DNA of 64,000 nucleotides from an uncultured Nitrosomonadales bacterium (GTDB lineage Bacteria; Pseudomonadota; Gammaproteobacteria; Burkholderiales; Gallionellaceae). The notes under the pieces are model-generated. The model did not search any database. It saw nothing but the letters and a program-made list of their open reading frames with translations, and was not told where the DNA came from. Location of the stretch: positions 17,282-81,281 of the forward strand of contig CAIOKY010000149.1 in NCBI GenBank assembly GCA_903858965.1, in the 5' to 3' direction. The position numbers and the translations under genes were made by a program. Within the stretch, counting starts at the first letter, position 1. The number at the start of each line of letters is the position of its first letter. This document shows, one piece after another, positions 54,016 to 64,000 of the stretch.

Positions 54016-55896
54016 ATGAATATTCTTTACGAAGAAGACGGCAGTTTCAAGGTCGGCAGCATCATGACCGATAACACCACATCGCTCCAGATCGAAAGCC
54101 TGTCCGGCAAGCGCAGCAAGGTCAAGGCGACCAATGTGATGCTGCGTTTCACCCAACCTGCCCTGGCCGAATTCATGGCCCAGGCCGAAGCGCTGTCCGC
54201 AAGCATCGAGGTGGATTTCCTGTGGGAATGCTGTCCGCCGGATGAGTTCGGTTCCGAGCAGATCGCCGCCGAATATTTCGGCCACCCGCCTAGTGCCCTG
54301 GAAGCCGCTGCGACGCTGATACGTCTGCATAGCGCGCCTATCTATTTCCACAAGAAAGGCAAAGGCCGCTATCGCGCAGCTCCGCCGGACGTGCTGAAAG
54401 CCGCACTGGCCGGGGCCGAAAAGAAACGCCAGCAATTGGCTCTGCAGGCGCGCATGACCGAACAGCTCACTCGCTTTGAATTACCCGCCGAGTTCACCGG
54501 ACACATTGATCATCTGCTCTACAAGCCAGACCGCAATACCATTGAGGTCAAGGCACTCGAGGCGGCTTGTGCCGCAACGCACCTGTCTGCCGCACACCTG
54601 TTGCATCGTTGCGGCGCACTGCCTTCCACGCACGATTACCACTTCCATCAATTCCTGTTCGAGTATTTCCCGAAAGGACTGGACTTTCCGCCCGTGGTAT
54701 TGGGTACATGGGCAGAATTGCCGCTGGCCACCGTACATGCCTTCAGTATCGACGATGCAACCACCACCGAGATCGATGATGCGTTCTCGGTGGAGAAACT
54801 CGCCAACGGCAACTGGCGCATCGGCGTGCATATCGCCGCGCCCGCACTGGGTATGCCGCGCGACTCGGATGGCGACAAGATCGCCGCGCAACGGCTCTCC
54901 ACGGTCTACATGCCCGGACGGAAGATCACGATGCTGCCGGACAGCGTAGTGGAGACTTTCACGCTGCGCGCGGATCATGTGTGTCCTGCGCTGTCGATGT
55001 ATAACGAGATTGACGGCGAAACACTGGGGATATTGGGTCACGAGAGCCGCATCGAACGCATCCACATCGCGGCGAACCTGCGCCATGACACGCTGGAGCC
55101 GCTGTTCAACGAGGAGACACTGGCGACGGGCAAGCTCGATTATCCTTATGCTGGCGAACTGAAACTGTTGTGGGACCTGGCGCAAAAAATGGAAGCCGGT
55201 CGCGGCAAGCCGTCCGACAACAACCCACAACAAGTGGATTACAACTTCAACATCGAGTCCGAAGAGCTTGTGGCCGGGCACCCGAACGACCGGGTCAGTA
55301 TCACGCAACGGCGGCGCGGTTCGCCGATCGACAAGGTGGTTTCTGAACTGATGATCCTGGTGAACAGCGAATGGGGCAAGCACCTGGCCGAACACGGTTT
55401 CGTCGGCATCTATCGTACCCAGCAGAACGGCAAGGTGAAGATGAGCACGGTCGCCGCACCGCATCAGGGCTTGGGCGTGGCGCAATACATGTGGTCAAGC
55501 TCGCCGCTGCGCCGCTATGTGGATATGGTGAACCAGCGCCAGATCATCGCGATGCTGCGCGGCGAGGAGCCGGCCTATCCGAAGAACGACCCGGCACTGT
55601 ATACGACGATCCGCGATTTCGACACGATGTACACTGTCTACGGCGAATTCCAGAAGAACATGGAGCGCTACTGGTGTTTGCGCTGGCTCCAGCAGGAAAA
55701 TGTCGAGCAGGTGGAAGCCGTCGTGCTGCGCGAAAACCTGGTGAAGCTCGCCAGCATCCCGCTGGTGTTCCGCGTACCGTCGCTGCCGGAAGCGCTGCCC
55801 GCCAACACCCGCGTGCAGCTGGCAATAGGCGAGATTGACCTGCTGGACCTGAATCTGGACGCGCGCTTTGTCGCAACGATAGAGGATGCTGCTTGA
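54016..55896 (+). CDS. RNase II/RNB-family exoribonuclease
   Basis: FSIDDATTTEIDDAFSVEKLANGNWRIGVHIAAPA and YMWSSSPLRRYVDMVNQRQIIAML. Confidence 0.93.
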   Translation: MNILYEEDGSFKVGSIMTDNTTSLQIESLSGKRSKVKATNVMLRFTQPALAEFMAQAEALSASIEVDFLWECCPPDEFGSEQIAAEYFGHPPSALEAAATLIRLHSAPIYFHKKGKGRYRAAPPDVLKAALAGAEKKRQQLALQARMTEQLTRFELPAEFTGHIDHLLYKPDRNTIEVKALEAACAATHLSAAHLLHRCGALPSTHDYHFHQFLFEYFPKGLDFPPVVLGTWAELPLATVHAFSIDDATTTEIDDAFSVEKLANGNWRIGVHIAAPALGMPRDSDGDKIAAQRLSTVYMPGRKITMLPDSVVETFTLRADHVCPALSMYNEIDGETLGILGHESRIERIHIAANLRHDTLEPLFNEETLATGKLDYPYAGELKLLWDLAQKMEAGRGKPSDNNPQQVDYNFNIESEELVAGHPNDRVSITQRRRGSPIDKVVSELMILVNSEWGKHLAEHGFVGIYRTQQNGKVKMSTVAAPHQGLGVAQYMWSSSPLRRYVDMVNQRQIIAMLRGEEPAYPKNDPALYTTIRDFDTMYTVYGEFQKNMERYWCLRWLQQENVEQVEAVVLRENLVKLASIPLVFRVPSLPEALPANTRVQLAIGEIDLLDLNLDARFVATIEDAA

Positions 55897-56777
55897 ATGC
55901 CGGACTAAAAACCAGATTAACCACAGTCTCGCAACTGCTAAGGACGAGATTATCCTTTTCGATGATCTTTTCCATCCTGCTGCACGCTTTTATCTTGTTC
56001 GGCCTCGCGCTGGTGATGCCTGAACCACGCAATGCGGACAACCTGATGCAGCCATTGCAGGTGGTGTTGGTCAACAGCAAATCCAAATCAAGACCCAGCC
56101 AGGCTGATGCACTGGCCCAGCACAATCTGGATGGCGGCGGCATTACAGCCGAAGACCGGCGCGCCAAGAGTCCGCTGCCCACGATGCGCGACGATCTCAA
56201 GTTCACCCCCGAACAACGCACCAAGCGCGTCGCCGCGCTGGAAGAAGAAACAAAACGTATGCTGACCCGGCTGAAGAGCGACTACACCACCGTGCAACCG
56301 GAACCCAAAAAGCAGAAAAGCAGCACCGCCAGCAATGGCGATGACCTGATACAAAAAGCCCTTGAGATCGCCCGCCTCGAAGCGCAAATCAATAAAAGCT
56401 GGGATGCCTATCAAAAGTTCCCGCGCCGCAAATTCATCGGCGCACACACCCAGGAATACCGCTTCGCACAATACATCGAAGATTGGCGCGTCAAGGTGGA
56501 ACGCATCGGCAACCTGAATTATCCCGAGCAGGCACGCCGCCAGAAGATCTTCGGCAAACTGCAACTCAGTGTTGCAATAGCAAAGGACGGCAGCGTGGAC
56601 AGCGTGGAAGTGAGCAAATCCTCAGGCCAGCGTTTGCTCGATGCGGCAGCGATACGCATCGTCAAGCTTGCGGCGCCCTACGCGCCATTGCCTCCCAACA
56701 TCACCAAGGACACCGACATCCTGACCATCACGCGCACATGGTCGTTCACCTCGTCGGATACCCTGGAGAGTGAATAG
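55893..56777 (+). CDS. TonB-family energy transducer
   Basis: N-terminal TM segment, long charged linker, C-terminal NYPEQARRQKIFGKLQLSVAIAKDGSVDSVEVSKSSGQRLLDAAAIRIV. Confidence 0.88.
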   Translation: MNAGLKTRLTTVSQLLRTRLSFSMIFSILLHAFILFGLALVMPEPRNADNLMQPLQVVLVNSKSKSRPSQADALAQHNLDGGGITAEDRRAKSPLPTMRDDLKFTPEQRTKRVAALEEETKRMLTRLKSDYTTVQPEPKKQKSSTASNGDDLIQKALEIARLEAQINKSWDAYQKFPRRKFIGAHTQEYRFAQYIEDWRVKVERIGNLNYPEQARRQKIFGKLQLSVAIAKDGSVDSVEVSKSSGQRLLDAAAIRIVKLAAPYAPLPPNITKDTDILTITRTWSFTSSDTLESE

Positions 56778-56817
56778 CATCTTGCTCCACTCAGAATTCT
56801 TGGTTAAAGTGTGGCCC

Positions 56818-57126
56818 ATGCATAGCGCCCTGTTTTCCAGACTACTACTGATCTTCGCCCTGTTGTTTGCGCAGATGGGCAGTTTGGCGCACGGCATTTC
56901 GCACATCATCGCCGAACCATCGCAAGGCTCGGAACAGTCACTGCCGCATGACAAATATTGCGACCAGTGCGCTGCTTATGCCCAGATCGGCAGTGCAGTC
57001 GGCAGCAGTAGCATCAACATTGTCGTCAGCGAAAACTGCGAAACACTGCATTCCGGCCATATCGGCTGTTACCTATCCAACACTTTTGTCGCATTCGCGG
57101 CGCGCGCCCCGCCCTACTCCGCATAA
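56818..57126 (+). CDS. Small exported His/Cys protein, paralogue A
   Basis: MHSALFSRLLLIFALLFAQMGSLAHGISH...PHDKYCDQCAAYAQIGSA; similar to 60244..60567. Confidence 0.75.
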   Translation: MHSALFSRLLLIFALLFAQMGSLAHGISHIIAEPSQGSEQSLPHDKYCDQCAAYAQIGSAVGSSSINIVVSENCETLHSGHIGCYLSNTFVAFAARAPPYSA

Positions 57127-57138
57127 GCCATTCCAGTT

Positions 57139-57157
57139 CCTCGCTGTATATGCGAGG
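57139..57157 (+). promoter_or_regulatory. Hairpin between paralogue A and outer-membrane gene
   Basis: CCTCGC-TGTATAT-GCGAGG. Confidence 0.45.
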
Positions 57158-57183
57158 CCTAGCCATGCTTTCAAGGAGTAAAC

Positions 57184-58545
57184 ATGTCACGAAATATTTG
57201 GTGCGCGGCTATTGCCGTGCTGTTGGGCAATCCGCTCGCGGCGCTTGCTGCGGATGATAGCGACCAGCAATCCGTAGCCGAACAGATCCAGCAATTAAAG
57301 CAAAGCAATGCGCAACTGGAACAGCGCCTGCAACACGTGGAAAATACTGCAACGCAGGCGCAAGCCCGCAGCAGCACTGCGCCGAGCAGTGTAAACAGCT
57401 TCAACCCCGCCGTGGCGATGATCCTGTCCGGCACCTATGGGCAACTCAGACAGGATCCCGCTATACCCGCAACCGGCTTCGCAATGAACGCCAATAACAC
57501 CGGTTACGTGCGCGGATTTTCCCTGCAGGAATCGGAGCTCAGCATCTCTGCCAACATCGATCCGCAGTTCAGCGGCGTCGGCACTTTCTCGCTGGCCCCG
57601 GAAGGCGGCATCAGCGTGGAAAACGGTTTCGTGCAGACCAGCGCAATGGGCAACGGCCTCAACCTGAAGTTCGGGCGATTCTTTTCCGGCCTCGGCTATC
57701 TCAACGAACAACATTCGCACGTCTGGGACTTCGCCGATCAGCCGCTGGTGTATCGCGTGCTGTGGGACAACCAGTACGCCGATGACGGCGTGCAATTGAA
57801 ATGGCTGGCACCGACCGACATGTTCGTCGAGATCGGCGGAGAGATCGGACGCGGGCTGGGCTTCCCCGGCACAGACAGGCAAAACAAGAATGGCGCGGGA
57901 GCAGGAGTATTGTTCGCGCACATTGGCGACGACATCGGCATCGAGCAAAGCTGGCGTGCCGGTGTTTCGCTACACGAGACCCGGCGCGAGAACGCGGTCA
58001 GCGATGCGGTGCCGGATTTGCTTGGCACATCGGGTGGCGTGAGCGACAGTTTCACGGGCGACAGCAGGACTGCCGGTCTGGACTTCGTGTGGAAATATTC
58101 GCCCAACGGCAATATCCGCGAGCGCTACCTGAAAGTACAGAGCGAATATTTTCAGCGCAAGGAAAATGGCATGCTGACCTATGATTACACAGCCCCGGGA
58201 GCTATTCCCGCAGGTGCAAACATTACTGACAGTTATTCCGATACCCAATCCGGCTGGTATCTGCAAAGCGTGTACCAGTTCATGCCGACCTGGCGCACCG
58301 GTTTACGCTATGACCGGCTGGCTCCGGGCACTGCCAGCGTGGGCGCGTCTATCGCAGGTGATGTCATCAGCAATTATGCGTTCAGTCCCTCTCGCCTCAC
58401 CTGGATGACGGATTACAACCCCAGCGAGTTCACCCGCATACGCCTGCAACTGGCGCACGATGAATCGCGCCAGGGGCTGACGGACAACCAGGTATTCGTG
58501 CAGTACATCATGAGTCTGGGCGCGCACGGCGCACACCAATATTGA
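57184..58545 (+). CDS. Outer-membrane beta-barrel (porin-like) protein with N-terminal coiled coil
   Basis: Signal peptide, QIQQLKQSNAQLEQRLQHVEN coiled coil, amphipathic beta-barrel segments, RIRLQLAHDES near the C-terminus. Confidence 0.8.
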   Translation: MSRNIWCAAIAVLLGNPLAALAADDSDQQSVAEQIQQLKQSNAQLEQRLQHVENTATQAQARSSTAPSSVNSFNPAVAMILSGTYGQLRQDPAIPATGFAMNANNTGYVRGFSLQESELSISANIDPQFSGVGTFSLAPEGGISVENGFVQTSAMGNGLNLKFGRFFSGLGYLNEQHSHVWDFADQPLVYRVLWDNQYADDGVQLKWLAPTDMFVEIGGEIGRGLGFPGTDRQNKNGAGAGVLFAHIGDDIGIEQSWRAGVSLHETRRENAVSDAVPDLLGTSGGVSDSFTGDSRTAGLDFVWKYSPNGNIRERYLKVQSEYFQRKENGMLTYDYTAPGAIPAGANITDSYSDTQSGWYLQSVYQFMPTWRTGLRYDRLAPGTASVGASIAGDVISNYAFSPSRLTWMTDYNPSEFTRIRLQLAHDESRQGLTDNQVFVQYIMSLGAHGAHQY

Positions 58546-58570
58546 TTAGCATCATTCAAAAGGAAAAATC

Positions 58571-59467
58571 ATGCAGAAAATCCTCTATACGTTTTTATTG
58601 TTGCTGCTGAGCGGCAACGTCCACGCCGCACTCAACGTGTTCGCCTGCGAACCGGAATGGGCGGCGCTCACGCAACAACTCGCGGGCGACAAGGCCAGCA
58701 TCTACACCGCCACAGGCCCGTTGCAAGACCCGCACCAGGTGCAGGCACGCCCCAGCCTGATCGCCAAGGCGCGCAATGCACAACTGTTGGTATGCACCGG
58801 CGCGGAACTGGAGATCGGATGGATGCCGGTGGTATTGCGCGAGTCCGGCAACAGCGCGATACAACCGGGCAGCGGTGGCAGTTTTGAAGCGGCGCAATAT
58901 GTGACGATGCTGGAAGTGCCTACCCGGCTGGATCGCGCTGATGGTGATGTGCATGCGGCAGGCAATCCGCACATCCAGACCGACCCGCGCAATTTCCTGC
59001 CGATCGCAGATGCACTCAGCAAACGCCTGGTCCAGATTGATCCGGCTAACGCCGCGTATTATCAACAGCAGCTCACCACGTTCAATCAGCAATGGCGTGC
59101 CGCAATCGCGAAGTGGGAAAAGCAGGCCGCTCCGCTCAGGGGTGTATCCATCATCGCGCATCACAAAGGTTTCCCCTACCTGAACGACTGGCTGGGACTG
59201 AAAGAAGTCGCCGAGCTGGAACCCAAGCCCGGCATGGAACCCAGCGCCGCATATCTGGGGAAAGTGCTGGGTGAATTGCAACAGCACCCGGCCAGAATGG
59301 TGATACGCGCCGCCTACCAGAATGAACGTCCATCGGAGTGGATTGCGGAACGCGCGCATATTCCCGCCGTGAATCTGCCATTCACAGTGGGTGGCACACC
59401 GCAGGCCACGGATCTGTTCACGATGTTCGATGATAGTGTGCAACGTTTGCTGGCAGGACTGAAATGA
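58571..59467 (+). CDS. Metal (zinc/manganese) ABC transporter substrate-binding protein, ZnuA-like
   Basis: FACEPEWAALTQQLAGDKASIYTATGPLQDPHQVQARPSLIAKARNAQLLVCTGAELEIGW, GNPHIQTDP, IAHHKGFPYL. Confidence 0.92.
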   Translation: MQKILYTFLLLLLSGNVHAALNVFACEPEWAALTQQLAGDKASIYTATGPLQDPHQVQARPSLIAKARNAQLLVCTGAELEIGWMPVVLRESGNSAIQPGSGGSFEAAQYVTMLEVPTRLDRADGDVHAAGNPHIQTDPRNFLPIADALSKRLVQIDPANAAYYQQQLTTFNQQWRAAIAKWEKQAAPLRGVSIIAHHKGFPYLNDWLGLKEVAELEPKPGMEPSAAYLGKVLGELQQHPARMVIRAAYQNERPSEWIAERAHIPAVNLPFTVGGTPQATDLFTMFDDSVQRLLAGLK

Positions 59468-60210
59468 ACGACATCGAGTTTTCCATATTGCTGCCTGCGT
59501 TCATCGCAGGTTTGCTGGTGCTCGCCACACACATCCCTCTCGGCATGAAGGTGCTGGCGCGCGGCGTGATCTTCGCCGATCTCGCTGTCGCACAGATCGC
59601 CGGGCTGGGTGTCATCATCGCCGCTTTGCTCGACTTGGCCGAACGGCCGCTGCTGGTGCAACTGATCGCCGCCGCCAGCGCGCTGTGTGGCGCGGGATTG
59701 CTGGCGTGGATCGAACATCGCCTGGCCGATGTCAAGGAAGCGTGCATCGGACTGACTTTCGTGCTCGCTGCCAGCGCTGGCATCCTGCTGATGAGCCGCG
59801 ATGTCCATGCGGGTGAACACCTCAAGGATCTGCTGGTCGGGCAGATCCTCTGGGTGAATACCAATCAGTTGATCGCGACCGCCGTATTGACCGCCGTGTT
59901 GCTCGCACTGTGGCAATGGACCAAACTGAAAAACCGCAATCTCGGTTTCTACGGTTTATTCGCGCTGGCCGTCACCGCCTCGGTGCAACTGGTCGGCGTA
60001 TATCTGGTGTTCGCCAGCCTGATCGTTCCGGCACTCGCCACGTATCGCGTCAAACACCAGCGCACGCTTTATGCGTTTGTGATCGGCATCGCCGGATATG
60101 CGATCGGGTTATTGCTGTCCTCATGGTTCGATCTACCGAGCGGCGCAACGGTAGTGTGGGCGATGGCCGTGACCGGCGTTGTTGCGGCCTGGTTGCTGAA
60201 CGCTTCTTAA
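59464..60210 (+). CDS. Metal ABC transporter permease, ZnuB-like
   Basis: VLARGVIFADLAVAQIAGLGVIIAAL, VQLVGVYLVFASLIVPALAT. Confidence 0.9.
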   Translation: MNDIEFSILLPAFIAGLLVLATHIPLGMKVLARGVIFADLAVAQIAGLGVIIAALLDLAERPLLVQLIAAASALCGAGLLAWIEHRLADVKEACIGLTFVLAASAGILLMSRDVHAGEHLKDLLVGQILWVNTNQLIATAVLTAVLLALWQWTKLKNRNLGFYGLFALAVTASVQLVGVYLVFASLIVPALATYRVKHQRTLYAFVIGIAGYAIGLLLSSWFDLPSGATVVWAMAVTGVVAAWLLNAS

Positions 60211-60243
60211 CTTCCAATATTGCTCTCGGCTAAAGCGTTTTCC

Positions 60244-60567
60244 ATGCGTAACTCATTATTTGCCAGGCTCCTGTTGATTATAGCCCTGCTGTTCGCACAG
60301 CAAGCCGGTGCAGCACATGCCTTGCAACACGCGCTTGAGGATTTGACGCCACAACAGGAAGACAAACAGGTGCCACATTCCGGCGCCTGCGAACAATGTG
60401 CAACCTATATGCAACTGGGTAGCGCCCTCAACGTCAGCGTATACAAATTCACACCTATAATCGTATCCGGTGAAGCGATACAACACCGCTATATCTCATT
60501 CCGTTCAATCCATGTCTTTACCGCCGTTGCACGCGGCCCGCCTTCTTTCCTCCAGTCGTTCGCATAA
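60244..60567 (+). CDS. Small exported His/Cys protein, paralogue B
   Basis: MRNSLFARLLLIIALLFAQQAGAAHALQHALEDL...PHSGACEQCATYMQLGSA...VARGPPSFLQ. Confidence 0.75.
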   Translation: MRNSLFARLLLIIALLFAQQAGAAHALQHALEDLTPQQEDKQVPHSGACEQCATYMQLGSALNVSVYKFTPIIVSGEAIQHRYISFRSIHVFTAVARGPPSFLQSFA

Positions 60568-60574
60568 ACACTGA

Positions 60575-60599
60575 CTCTTCCCCATTTGCGGGGGAAGAG
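60575..60599 (+). promoter_or_regulatory. Hairpin between paralogue B and TonB-dependent receptor gene
   Basis: CTCTTCCCC-ATTTGCG-GGGGAAGAG. Confidence 0.55.
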
Positions 60600-60633
60600 A
60601 AAGCATTTTGGCAATTCTTTGGAGGAAAACATC

Positions 60634-63024
60634 ATGTTAAAACACATCTTATTGTGCGCGGCGCTGGCCGTGCCGCTTTACGCCCATGCCGAAAATAACT
60701 TGGAGCCAAGTTCCAGTCATGAACAAACAAACGAAACAGCCAAGTTGAATGGTATTCAGGGTCAGGTCAACGATACCTTGGGACGCCCTATTGCCGAGGC
60801 CGATGTCACACTGAAGAGCGTTACTGGTGAAGTGGTTGCCCATGCCACCAGCGATACCGAAGGTCATTTCGCTTTCACTGCCACGGTACCGGGCACCTAT
60901 GCTGTTTTGTCGGATAAACCCGGTTTTAAAACCGGTTCATCAATTGTCACGTTCTCAGCGGGGATGGCAAGCACCATCATTACGCTGGCAGCCTCGCAGG
61001 TACAGGATATCACTATCACGGCGACAAAACTGGAAAAGGCCCGCAATGGCCTGTCACCCAAAACTGGCGGAAGTGTCTACAAGTTCGATGCCAGCAACAT
61101 TGACAATTTACCGCAAGGAGAAAGTACCGCCTTCAACCAGGTACTGCTCCAGGCACCCGGGGTGGCCAATGATTCATACGGCCAATTGCATGTGCGTGGT
61201 GATCATGGCAACACCCAGTATCGTATTAACGGCGTTATCCTGCCGGAAGGTGTCAGTGGTTTCGGTCAAACAATGGACACACGCTTTGCGCAAGGTATCG
61301 ATCTGTTGACGGGTGCTTTACCAGCCCAGTACGGCTATCGCACGGCAGGTGTTATTGAAATCAACACCAAAACCAACTTCGAGGCAGGCGGACACATTGA
61401 TTTGTATGGTGGTAGCAACCATACCTTAAATCCCAGCATCGAATATGGAAACACCAATGGCAATCTTTCATATTTTGTCGATGGGTCATATCTGACTAAC
61501 GACGTCGGAATAGAAAATCCAACCTCCAGCGCTAATCCGATACATGACACCACAAAGCAGGAGAAAGGGTTCGCCTATCTTTCTTATCTGCTGAATCCCG
61601 ACACCAAGCTGAGTTTCATGTTTGGCAGTTACGACGGCAAATTTCAGGTGCCGAATAATCCGGGTCAAACCCCCGACCCAAACAATCTCGGAATACTCGC
61701 GCAACTTCCCGCCGGATATAACCCCGATTCCGCCACGTTGAACGACAATCAGAGCGAGGTAAACCGCTTTGCAGTGGCTGCGTTGCAAAGCTCGCTCAAC
61801 GACAGATTCGACTATCAGGTCGCACTGTTTACGCGCTACTCCAGCGTCCATTACATACCGGATATCAATGGTAATCTGGCGTTCAACGGCGTGGCGTCGG
61901 ATGTATTTCGCAGCAGCTCCAGCACCGGCATTCAAGCTGATGGCAGTGATCGGCTGAATGAAACGCATACGTTGCGGATGGGGATGTTCGGCAGCGATGA
62001 AAACATCGTGAGCAACAACTCCTCCACGGTATTTCCGGTGGATAGTTCGGGGAATGTTTCAGGACCAGCCTACACTATCGTCGACAATAATCCCAAAAAC
62101 GGCAACACACTGCTGGGGCTTTATCTTCAGGATGAATGGAAGGCGACCGACAAACTGACCGTAAACTATGGCGGACGTTTCGACCAGGTCAACGCCTATG
62201 TCAACGAACATCAATTCAGTCCAAGACTGGGGCTGGTTTACAAATCCAGCGACCGGACTACCTGGCACAGCGGATATGCTCGTTACTTTACTCCGCCTCC
62301 GACCGAGCTGGTTTCCTCTACCACCCAGGCTCTGTTTGCGAACACCACCAATGACCAACCGGGAGCCAATTCGCCGGTAAAGTCGGAGCGGGCAAACTAT
62401 CTGGATGCCGGCGTTACCCATCAACTGACACCGGTTGTCAGCCTTGGTTTGGATACTTTCTACAAGCAAACCAGAAACACCATCGACGAAGGCCAGTTCG
62501 GATCCGCGCTGATTTTGACGCCATTCAATTATGAACAAGGAAAAATTTATGGTGCTGAATTAACGAGCAACTATAAATCAGGCGACCTTTCCGGTTACGC
62601 CAATCTGGCCAGAACCATCAGCATGGCGAAAAACATCATATCAAGCCAGTATCTGTTCGATTCGACCGAACTTGCGTACGCGGCCGATAACTGGGTGAAC
62701 GTCGACCATGAACAGGCGCTGACCATTTCGACCGGCGCTTCCTATCTTTGGTCTGGCACGCGCCTGAACGGCGACTTGATATACGAGAGCGGTTTACGCA
62801 ACGGTTTTGCCAACACCACCCATCTGCCAGGCTATACCGTGTTGAATCTAGGCGCCAGTCAAAAAATGAAATTTGTTGACATCGGACCGATCGAAGCCCG
62901 GCTGGCGATTACCAATGTTACGGACAAGATATATCAGATCCGGGACGGCTCAGGTATAGGTGTGGGCGCTCCACAGTACGGCCAGCGGCGCGGCCTGTTC
63001 ATCGGCCTGTCCAAGCCACTGTAA
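60634..63024 (+). CDS. TonB-dependent receptor with N-terminal carboxypeptidase-regulatory-like domain
   Basis: GIQGQVNDTLGRPIAEADVTLKSVTGEVVAHATSDTEGHFAFTA; plug domain VLLQAPGVANDSYGQLHVRGDHGNTQYRINGVILPEGVSGFGQ. Confidence 0.93.
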   Translation: MLKHILLCAALAVPLYAHAENNLEPSSSHEQTNETAKLNGIQGQVNDTLGRPIAEADVTLKSVTGEVVAHATSDTEGHFAFTATVPGTYAVLSDKPGFKTGSSIVTFSAGMASTIITLAASQVQDITITATKLEKARNGLSPKTGGSVYKFDASNIDNLPQGESTAFNQVLLQAPGVANDSYGQLHVRGDHGNTQYRINGVILPEGVSGFGQTMDTRFAQGIDLLTGALPAQYGYRTAGVIEINTKTNFEAGGHIDLYGGSNHTLNPSIEYGNTNGNLSYFVDGSYLTNDVGIENPTSSANPIHDTTKQEKGFAYLSYLLNPDTKLSFMFGSYDGKFQVPNNPGQTPDPNNLGILAQLPAGYNPDSATLNDNQSEVNRFAVAALQSSLNDRFDYQVALFTRYSSVHYIPDINGNLAFNGVASDVFRSSSSTGIQADGSDRLNETHTLRMGMFGSDENIVSNNSSTVFPVDSSGNVSGPAYTIVDNNPKNGNTLLGLYLQDEWKATDKLTVNYGGRFDQVNAYVNEHQFSPRLGLVYKSSDRTTWHSGYARYFTPPPTELVSSTTQALFANTTNDQPGANSPVKSERANYLDAGVTHQLTPVVSLGLDTFYKQTRNTIDEGQFGSALILTPFNYEQGKIYGAELTSNYKSGDLSGYANLARTISMAKNIISSQYLFDSTELAYAADNWVNVDHEQALTISTGASYLWSGTRLNGDLIYESGLRNGFANTTHLPGYTVLNLGASQKMKFVDIGPIEARLAITNVTDKIYQIRDGSGIGVGAPQYGQRRGLFIGLSKPL

Positions 63025-63078
63025 CTTTTACAACCAAGAACAGGTTATGCCTTGCATAACCTGTTAGAGGAATCAATC

Positions 63079-63723
63079 ATGCAAGAAATTACTGAAGCAT
63101 TCCAAGCGATGAAATTCGGCGGAGTAACTATCTACCCGCTGCTGGCCTTGGCCGTTTTGGCGCTGGTCATCATCATCGATAAATTCTATCTCTATCGGCG
63201 CCATATTCAGTTTCCGCTAACCATGTCCAACCTGATCGAAACATACGGTTTCACTTGGGAAAGTCTGGAACAGGAACTGGCTACACTCACGCCAGAAAAT
63301 TATTACGGCAGATTTTGCCGCATCGTTCTGGATAACCGTGACAAACCGGTTTGGTGGTTAGAGTCACGTGCCGGCGACGAAGCGCAAATCATCGAAGAAG
63401 GTATGGGGCGCGGCATGTGGATATTGGAAACCATCGTGACCGGCGCGCCCTTGCTGGGTCTGCTGGGCACTATTACCGGCATGATGCATTCATTCAATCT
63501 GATCGGTGGCACCGGTTTAGTCGATCCGAGCGGCGTTACAGGCGGCGTGGCGCAAGCCCTGATCGCTACTGCTTTCGGTATCTTCATCGCCGTTTTCGCA
63601 TTGTTTGGCTTCAACTTTTTCTCGCGCCGCCAAGTACAGGTGCTGGAGAAAATGGAGCGGCTCGGCACGCGCATCATAGACAATATCCGGCTGAATCGGC
63701 ACGAAGACAAGGTCAAGCAATGA
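63079..63723 (+). CDS. exbB: MotA/TolQ/ExbB proton channel family protein
   Basis: GAPLLGLLGTITGMMHSFNLIG and GGVAQALIATAFGIFIAVFALFGFN. Confidence 0.93.
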   Translation: MQEITEAFQAMKFGGVTIYPLLALAVLALVIIIDKFYLYRRHIQFPLTMSNLIETYGFTWESLEQELATLTPENYYGRFCRIVLDNRDKPVWWLESRAGDEAQIIEEGMGRGMWILETIVTGAPLLGLLGTITGMMHSFNLIGGTGLVDPSGVTGGVAQALIATAFGIFIAVFALFGFNFFSRRQVQVLEKMERLGTRIIDNIRLNRHEDKVKQ

Positions 63724-64000
63724 AATTGCGAAAATCTCGCGAATACAAACGCGGCCGCATCGAGATCATCCCGATGATAGACGTGATGTTCTTCCTGCTG
63801 GCCACCTTCATGCTGGCTTCGCTGTCGATGCAAAACCTGCATTCGCTGCCGGTCAACCTTCCCCAAGGACACGCCGCGCCTATCCAGGCCAAGACTCCGA
63901 TCACCCTGACCATCACGCCCGAAAGCCAGATCTACCTCAACAAGACACTGGTGACTCTGGATACCCTGACGGCTACGCTGAAACCGATGCTGACCGGCCC
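63720..64000 (+). CDS. exbD: ExbD/TolR family protein, truncated by window edge
   Basis: MKLRKSREYKRGRIEIIPMIDVMFFLLATFMLASL. Confidence 0.93.
   Translation, partial: MKLRKSREYKRGRIEIIPMIDVMFFLLATFMLASLSMQNLHSLPVNLPQGHAAPIQAKTPITLTITPESQIYLNKTLVTLDTLTATLKPMLTG

Follow-up and report, generated by a model that had tools for sequence, protein, structure and literature searches.

Candidate CruR-like arrest-peptide leaders in a zinc-type uptake locus of an uncultured Gallionellaceae bacterium

The window described here is a 64,000-nucleotide stretch of DNA from an uncultured Nitrosomonadales bacterium of the family Gallionellaceae, and its end holds a row of nine genes that look like a metal-uptake locus. 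Two of the nine are small exported open reading frames (ORFs), A and B. A stands directly before the gene for a porin-like outer-membrane protein (OMP), and B stands directly before the gene for a TonB-dependent receptor (TBDR). Taken by itself, the reading of A and B as CruR-like, metal-sensing arrest-peptide leaders is very likely right. The joint statement, that two such leaders serve a zinc-type uptake locus and that zinc is their likeliest ligand, is probable.

CruR, a DUF2946 upstream ORF of Bordetella pertussis, is the reference case. The ribosome translating it arrests at a C-terminal RAPP motif, 3 residues before the stop codon, and CruR perceives copper via a CxxC motif 45 residues before RAPP; relief of the arrest leads to Rho-dependent termination before the TonB-dependent receptor gene BfrG/CrtA (PMC9426467). 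CruR also arrests in a purified translation system, and RAPP and RGPP, which are avoided in bacterial proteomes, were the most robust of the arrest motifs tested and are characteristic of small exported proteins encoded ahead of metal genes (PMC12992588).

Two small ORFs built like CruR

The two leader ORFs and the hairpins behind them are as follows.

56818 to 57126, forward strand: leader ORF A, 102 aa, identified by motif geometry, homologues, and the ratio of nonsynonymous to synonymous substitution rates (dN/dS)
57139 to 57157, forward strand: hairpin in the A-OMP intergenic region, CCTCGC-7 nt-GCGAGG, 12 nt past the stop codon of A
60244 to 60567, forward strand: leader ORF B, 107 aa, identified by motif geometry and relatives
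60575 to 60599, forward strand: hairpin in the B-TBDR intergenic region, CTCTTCCCC-7 nt-GGGGGAAGA

Both ORFs begin with an export signal. In A, this is followed by CDQC (nt 56959-56970), 44 residues, RAPP (nt 57103-57114), and the residues YSA before the stop codon; in B, it is followed by CEQC (nt 60388-60399), again 44 residues, RGPP (nt 60532-60543), and SFLQSFA. Three residues thus separate the arrest motif from the stop codon in A, and seven do so in B. Inspection of the leader alignment (A3) revealed a hydrophobic N-terminus and a conserved LLFAQ-type segment. Ribosome-binding sites are weak before A and B and strong before the OMP and TBDR genes.

An initial annotation, made from the letters alone, had described the small proteins as His/Cys proteins that were possibly DUF2946-like. 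The first description is correct in modest measure (4 Cys and 6 His in A, 2 Cys and 5 His in B). As for the second, neither protein reaches the curated cut-off of DUF2946 (PF11162); B gives a weak match (E=0.057) and A gives none. Among 19 leaders scanned, 15 match DUF2946 at E<=1, the best at 1e-5.

Neither ORF is the first of its gene row, the place of a CruR-type leader: 40 nt separate the upstream tonB gene (tonB1) from A, and 33 nt separate znuB from B. In the rest of the order, A-type leaders mostly have no tonB1 in front of them. The element TTAAAGTG at 56804-56811, which precedes the leader A start codon by 14 nt, recurs in eight loci of close relatives and is perhaps a promoter element giving a very short 5' leader. 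Because this k-mer is confined to close Gallionellaceae relatives, it is no evidence for a general element.

Conservation of the leaders with their outer-membrane genes

The order-wide sample comprised 120 OMP loci, 40 of them from whole genomes and 80 from named contigs, with a few genomes represented twice. In 109 of them, the OMP gene is immediately preceded by an A-type ORF. Among the remaining loci, six keep RAPP with a changed CxxC and one keeps CxxC with a changed RAPP; three run into the end of a contig, and two are without a leader. A strict motif, CxxC-(42-46)-R[AG]PP-(1-8)-stop, was found 107 times directly upstream of an OMP gene in 1.58 Mb of sequence and only 3 times elsewhere, and all three off-site matches are leader-like ORFs too.

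Since CxxC and RxPP were demanded by the motif search, the invariance of these letters is no evidence; what the search does inform on is how many of the loci are matched, how the motifs are spaced, how short the tail is, and whether Ala or Gly is chosen. With spacings of 38-50 open to the search, the distance from CxxC to the arrest motif was 44 residues in 86 of 104 unique leaders and 43-46 in all. Of these leaders, 79 have a C-terminal tail of 3 residues and 71 have a His at position -4 relative to CxxC; 90 carry RAPP as their arrest motif, 13 carry RGPP, and 1 carries RDPP. The 44-residue linker between the two motifs is poorly conserved.

Class-wide, a leader was found in 67 of the 81 loci with sufficient upstream sequence, and 48 have a correctly spaced CxxC. 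The other 19 keep R[AG]PP and have lost CxxC, most of them carrying one Cys beside a His-rich stretch. For instance, RAPP is kept and CxxC is replaced by an HSVEHPFHxxxxSCxx[YF]-type stretch in loci L199, L203, L207, L210, L212, L223, and L238. The order-wide and class-wide counts together bear out the conservation of small ORFs with OMP genes on which the initial annotation had staked its reading.

The small ORFs are genuine, and the A-type ORF evolves as a coding sequence does. ORF A has a dN/dS of 0.15-0.35, indicating strong purifying selection, and the median over 467 pairwise comparisons of A-type ORFs is 0.28, with none above 0.7. Most order-wide DUF2946 proteins (matches to the Pfam model) have an HC-P-[YF]-C site and a RAPP end, and the OMP-linked leader family, therefore, forms a distinct branch. 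Farther afield, a plasmid of Sulfurovum mangrovi (Campylobacterota) has a 118-aa ORF with CQVC and a C-terminal HAPP (L274, 3306-3662) before an OMP-znuA-permease operon; this may be a remote version of the leader.

This pattern of conservation bears on the role that the initial annotation gave to A and B, that of new periplasmic components. As metal carriers passing metal between the outer-membrane protein and ZnuA, they would need the export signals and the Cys and His residues that they have, and their genes do lie beside outer-membrane protein genes. Yet beyond the signal and the CxxC/His parts, what is conserved is RAPP or RGPP, near the stop codon and at a fixed distance from CxxC, in a protein whose linker varies and whose arrest motif bacterial proteomes avoid. 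Also, the weak ribosome-binding sites of A and B, set against the strong ones of OMP and TBDR, and the hairpin before the next gene suit a leader peptide, and the homologous operon of Vibrio campbellii manages without such a protein. CruR is itself thought to be short-lived or degraded and to have no further function (PMC9426467). Given CxxC-44-RAPP/RGPP at the C-terminus and this view of CruR, we do not regard A and B as periplasmic components, and the carrier role is highly improbable.

Structured RNA behind the leaders

The intergenic region between leader and OMP gene has a median length of 66 nt (102 order-wide loci) and is more structured than controls of the same length (folding z -1.30, against -0.26 and -0.22). 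A perfect hairpin occurs in 44 of 78 leader-OMP intergenic regions; among the controls, stretches within the OMP gene have one in 20 of 78 cases and those before the leader in 15 of 77. In homologous intergenic regions it starts a median of 12 nt past the leader stop codon. A T-rich tail follows the hairpin in 27 intergenic regions versus 0 and 4 in the controls. In the window, the hairpin behind B has a minimum free energy of -18.5 kcal/mol (z -1.9). Moreover, the excess of C over G in the leaders exceeds that of the OMP and near-znuA stretches. Masking of a ribosome-binding site that a stalled ribosome would relieve was considered as well and rejected, as folding of 102 leader-gene junctions revealed no such effect.

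The locus and its transport genes

The remaining genes, with protein families assigned by Pfam/NCBIfam profile searches, are listed below.

55962 to 56777, forward strand: tonB1 (TonB_C, 2e-19)
57184 to 58545, forward strand: porin-like OMP, 453 aa (AlphaFold model, Foldseek)
58571 to 59467, forward strand: znuA-like gene for a periplasmic metal-binding protein (PF01297, 5e-42)
59464 to 60210, forward strand: znuB-like gene for an ABC-3 permease (PF00950)
60634 to 63024, forward strand: TBDR, 796 aa (TonB_dep_Rec with an N-terminal CarboxypepD_reg)
63079 to 63723, forward strand: exbB (MotA_ExbB, 7e-26)
63720 to 64000, forward strand: exbD, cut by the contig end, with the remainder on contig C47 (L004)

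All nine genes are present on one strand in the order first described. Neighbors are separated by 25-66 nt or overlap by 4 nt, as znuA and znuB do; the initial annotation had rightly noted such tight packing, and we infer co-transcription. The locus start that it placed at 55893 rests on an upstream TTG, and tonB is called here at 55962. A perfect 12-bp inverted repeat, AACAGGTTATGC-CTT-GCATAACCTGTT, lies at 63039-63065 between the TBDR and exbB genes. The window ends where contig C149 ends, and its last 26 nt are shared with contig C47, which carries the rest of exbD and then a second tonB (tonB2), aroE, and mtgA. In a relative (L162), exbB-exbD-tonB2 runs unbroken.

The OMP has an N-terminal coiled coil and no plug domain, and its AlphaFold model (mean confidence score, pLDDT, 73) matches the OmpT, OprO, and DcaP porins in Foldseek. 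The TonB-dependent-receptor identity suggested by the name "zinc-regulated TonB-dependent outer membrane receptor" was, therefore, set aside for this protein, which has general-porin folds among its matches and no Pfam plug or receptor match. ZnuA has the invariant residues His55, His128, His134, and His198 (alignment A2) and no His-rich loop, and its nearest solved relatives bind Zn and Mn. The znuB gene encodes the only ABC-3 permease found in the genome (G000). No ABC ATPase gene was found in the locus, and almost none of the 80 named loci has an ABC ATPase pattern beside znuAB. Nor was a ZnuC detected in the rest of the metagenome-assembled genome (MAG; 95% complete): the best-scoring ATPase reaches 102 bits, where the cut-off is 306, and the ATPases inspected look like ABC-2, LptB, and Uup types, so that a partner encoded away from the locus was rejected. 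A search of the TBDR against solved structures for a substrate gave no sequence match at 0.001.

A site for interchangeable modules

The usual order in other Gallionellaceae is rnb-tonB1-leader-OMP-znuA-znuB-aroE-mtgA. The pair rnb-tonB1 adjoins the OMP module in these relatives and is rarely near it elsewhere in the order. We therefore assign tonB1 to the rnb neighborhood; it is probably a conserved neighbor of rnb and not specific to the cassette, whose own TonB lies beyond the window. The earlier claim that the locus carries its own energizer is supported, except that the first tonB goes with rnb and the TonB of the cassette is outside the window.

A genome of the same genus (G190, L162) reads rnb-tonB1-leader-TBDR-exbB-exbD-tonB2, with no OMP module beside tonB1. 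A second such genome, G115 (L035), has the OMP module only, and the window has the OMP and TBDR modules in tandem. Because these three differ in this way, the site holds interchangeable modules, each with its own small ORF at the head. The division into modules of a small ORF plus an outer-membrane protein (A with OMP, B with TBDR), first proposed from the window alone, holds accordingly. Two further loci, L060 and L070, have both modules adjacent in the reverse order.

The module TBDR-exbB-exbD(-tonB2) recurs in relatives, and in other places, too, TBDR modules are often preceded by similarly built leaders, with ends of the RAPP, RGPP, RSPP, or QAPP type. CxxC leaders with RSPP or QAPP often head the TBDR-exbB-exbD modules of other families, as at L160, L163, L169-L174, and L180 and at L161, L179, L185, and L187; the RSPP and QAPP ends are possibly further arrest motifs. 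The nearest relatives of leader B are OMP-module leaders from other Gallionellaceae and from a Ferrovum MAG, a similarity that suggests that leaders may move between outer-membrane genes.

Which metal would be sensed

The initial annotation took this region for a possible acquisition system for Zn or another divalent metal. A metal-acquisition locus is supported, and the gene set makes zinc the likeliest metal: omr-znuAII-znuBII of Vibrio parahaemolyticus, an OMP-ZnuA-ZnuB operon, is induced 283-1033-fold by zinc limitation and is in the Zur regulon list (PMC9817125). The homologous operon of V. campbellii lacks a leader ORF; it has a TGTTATGCTATAACA-type Zur box instead. This alternation extends class-wide. 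Zur-like boxes occur in 3 of 48 loci with a CxxC leader, in 5 of 19 with a leader that lacks CxxC, and in 7 of 14 without a leader; the contrast between loci with an intact CxxC leader (3/48) and those without (12/33) gives a Fisher p of 0.001, although the loci are related and the contrast is, therefore, not phylogenetically independent. The check for Zur or Fur boxes that the initial annotation had proposed came back negative: none was detected in the 260 nt upstream of each of 109 order-wide leaders (A included, B not), with scores equal to those of shuffled sequences. The sole FUR-family protein of the 95% complete genome resembles Fur, as evidenced by its HHDH and CxxC pattern.

Copper is the other candidate. 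CruR-type leaders that sense copper would let copper excess shut the importer, or else the locus would import copper. CruR, the nearest characterized relative in architecture, responds to copper through its CxxC, DUF2946 leaders stand at the head of copper operons (PMC9426467), the weak DUF2946 matches of 15 of the 19 leaders scanned point the same way, and the TBDR would leave room for such a substrate. However, A precedes a gene set that in Vibrio is induced by zinc limitation and that often lies behind Zur boxes; the C-[DE]-x-C site with its upstream His is unlike the site of most DUF2946 leaders of the same order; and CxxC has been lost in 19 class-wide homologues, most with one Cys and a His-rich stretch in its place. 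Copper sensing is, accordingly, unlikely. The evidence favors Zn(II) as the ligand, and if A and B are leader peptides, then zinc is probably the metal.

The alternation of leaders and Zur boxes also bears on whether metal is sensed at all. Secretion monitors of the SecM/ApdP kind, in which export relieves the arrest and the genes track Sec capacity, share with A and B an export signal and a C-terminal RAPP or RGPP. This explanation leaves CxxC and its spacing from RAPP unaccounted for, CruR functions without its signal peptide (PMC9426467), and CxxC leaders and Zur boxes tend to alternate. It is thus highly improbable.

Several points count against reading A and B as zinc-responsive leaders. 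Leader B is internal to the locus, whereas the known cases stand at the head. Taken singly, the hairpin behind A is unremarkable (z -0.85), and the C-over-G bias and the hairpins with T-rich tails are compatible with Rho-dependent and intrinsic attenuation alike. As for the metal, CxxC by itself cannot separate Zn(II) from Cu(I), and CxxC leaders of the CruR type are demonstrated to sense copper. Finally, in the comparison V. campbellii stands in for omr of V. parahaemolyticus.

Proposed mechanism

We infer that A and B arrest ribosomes and, as separate metal checkpoints, would keep the outer-membrane entry genes on under metal scarcity. Translation of both would be weak. With metal in short supply, the ribosome would stall at the C-terminal RAPP of A or RGPP of B and let transcription or expression run on into the next gene, so that A would gate the porin-like OMP and then znuA-znuB, and B would gate the TBDR and then exbBD-tonB2. 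Metal bound to the CxxC/His part of the nascent chain may free the stall through folding or pulling, and translation would end. Transcription would then halt in the structured intergenic region, whether by Rho or by the hairpin, and the gene would be off; the freed peptide would be exported and then degraded.

Significance

The kind of regulation proposed here is already known from CruR, CutF, and RAPP arrest peptides. The general phenomenon is known as well, because a 2025 survey reported small proteins with RAPP or RGPP ahead of "TonB-related" genes (PMC12992588), a class that may already contain some of these ORFs. Four things are new: the leaders have a zinc-type OMP-ZnuA-ZnuB operon as their constant partner, their metal site is distinct, they alternate with Zur, and one locus holds two of them. 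A literature search of incomplete coverage turned up no report of leaders on a zinc-type operon, of their fixed pairing with OMP-ZnuA-ZnuB, of the Zur alternation, or of tandem leaders, and none of a zinc-responsive arrest peptide. The authors of the CruR study knew of no case in which zinc acts through a leader peptide or riboswitch, and they note that no riboswitch has been described for Cu or Zn (PMC9426467).

In its broadest form, our proposal is that a widespread, undescribed branch of nascent-chain sensors (C-[DE]-x-C or His/Cys plus RAPP arrest) controls zinc uptake in place of Zur, through attenuation coupled to translation, and that two of these sensors gate two alternative entry routes here; we consider this as apt to be wrong as right. 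If the leaders do read zinc, then ribosome arrest would run zinc homeostasis in many operons of Gammaproteobacteria (as defined by GTDB, including Burkholderiales) that have no Zur box, and hundreds of "hypothetical" or "DUF2946" genes beside zinc transporters would gain a function. The Zur-or-leader alternation is, moreover, a natural experiment on a change of regulator in one operon, and through it a comparison of CPYC, CDKC, and His/Cys versions would directly test which metals CruR-type leaders respond to.

Comparison with known systems

CruR is the closest parallel. Like it, A and B are small exported ORFs with a CxxC, a 44-residue interval (45 in CruR), and a C-terminal RAPP or RGPP, and they lie directly upstream of an outer-membrane transporter gene on the same strand. 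The leaders are rich in C over G, as in the rut region of cruR, and a structured intergenic region is a further shared feature. Unlike CruR, A and B match DUF2946 weakly at best, and unlike DUF2946 leaders, which mostly have HC-P-[YF]-C, the leaders here have C-[DE]-x-C and, at position -4, a His. They also differ in being tied to a zinc-type OMP-ZnuA-ZnuB operon, in occurring twice per locus with one copy internal, and in the gap to the next gene, which is usually about 66 nt order-wide and 162 nt in CruR.

CutF from Rhodobacter capsulatus is likewise a DUF2946-like nascent exported protein with Cys and C-terminal proline motifs that controls downstream genes (PMC9973294). However, it has CxxxC, copper activates, and a stem-loop that hides a ribosome-binding site opens; no such masking was seen here. 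Sec/YidC-linked ApdA and ApdP are small exported proteins too, with a RAPP-type arrest motif close to the C-terminus, but they lie upstream of protein-localization genes, and descriptions of them mention no metal-binding CxxC.

Among transporters, the locus resembles omr-znuAII-znuBII of V. parahaemolyticus, which has the same OMP-ZnuA-ZnuB set and no ATPase gene in the operon (PMC9817125). The V. campbellii homologues have a Zur-type box and no leader, whereas the window has a leader and no Zur box. The locus also shares with the zinc importers ZnuABC and AztABC a PF01297 binding protein and an ABC-3 permease, and it differs from both in lacking the ZnuC/AztA ATPase.

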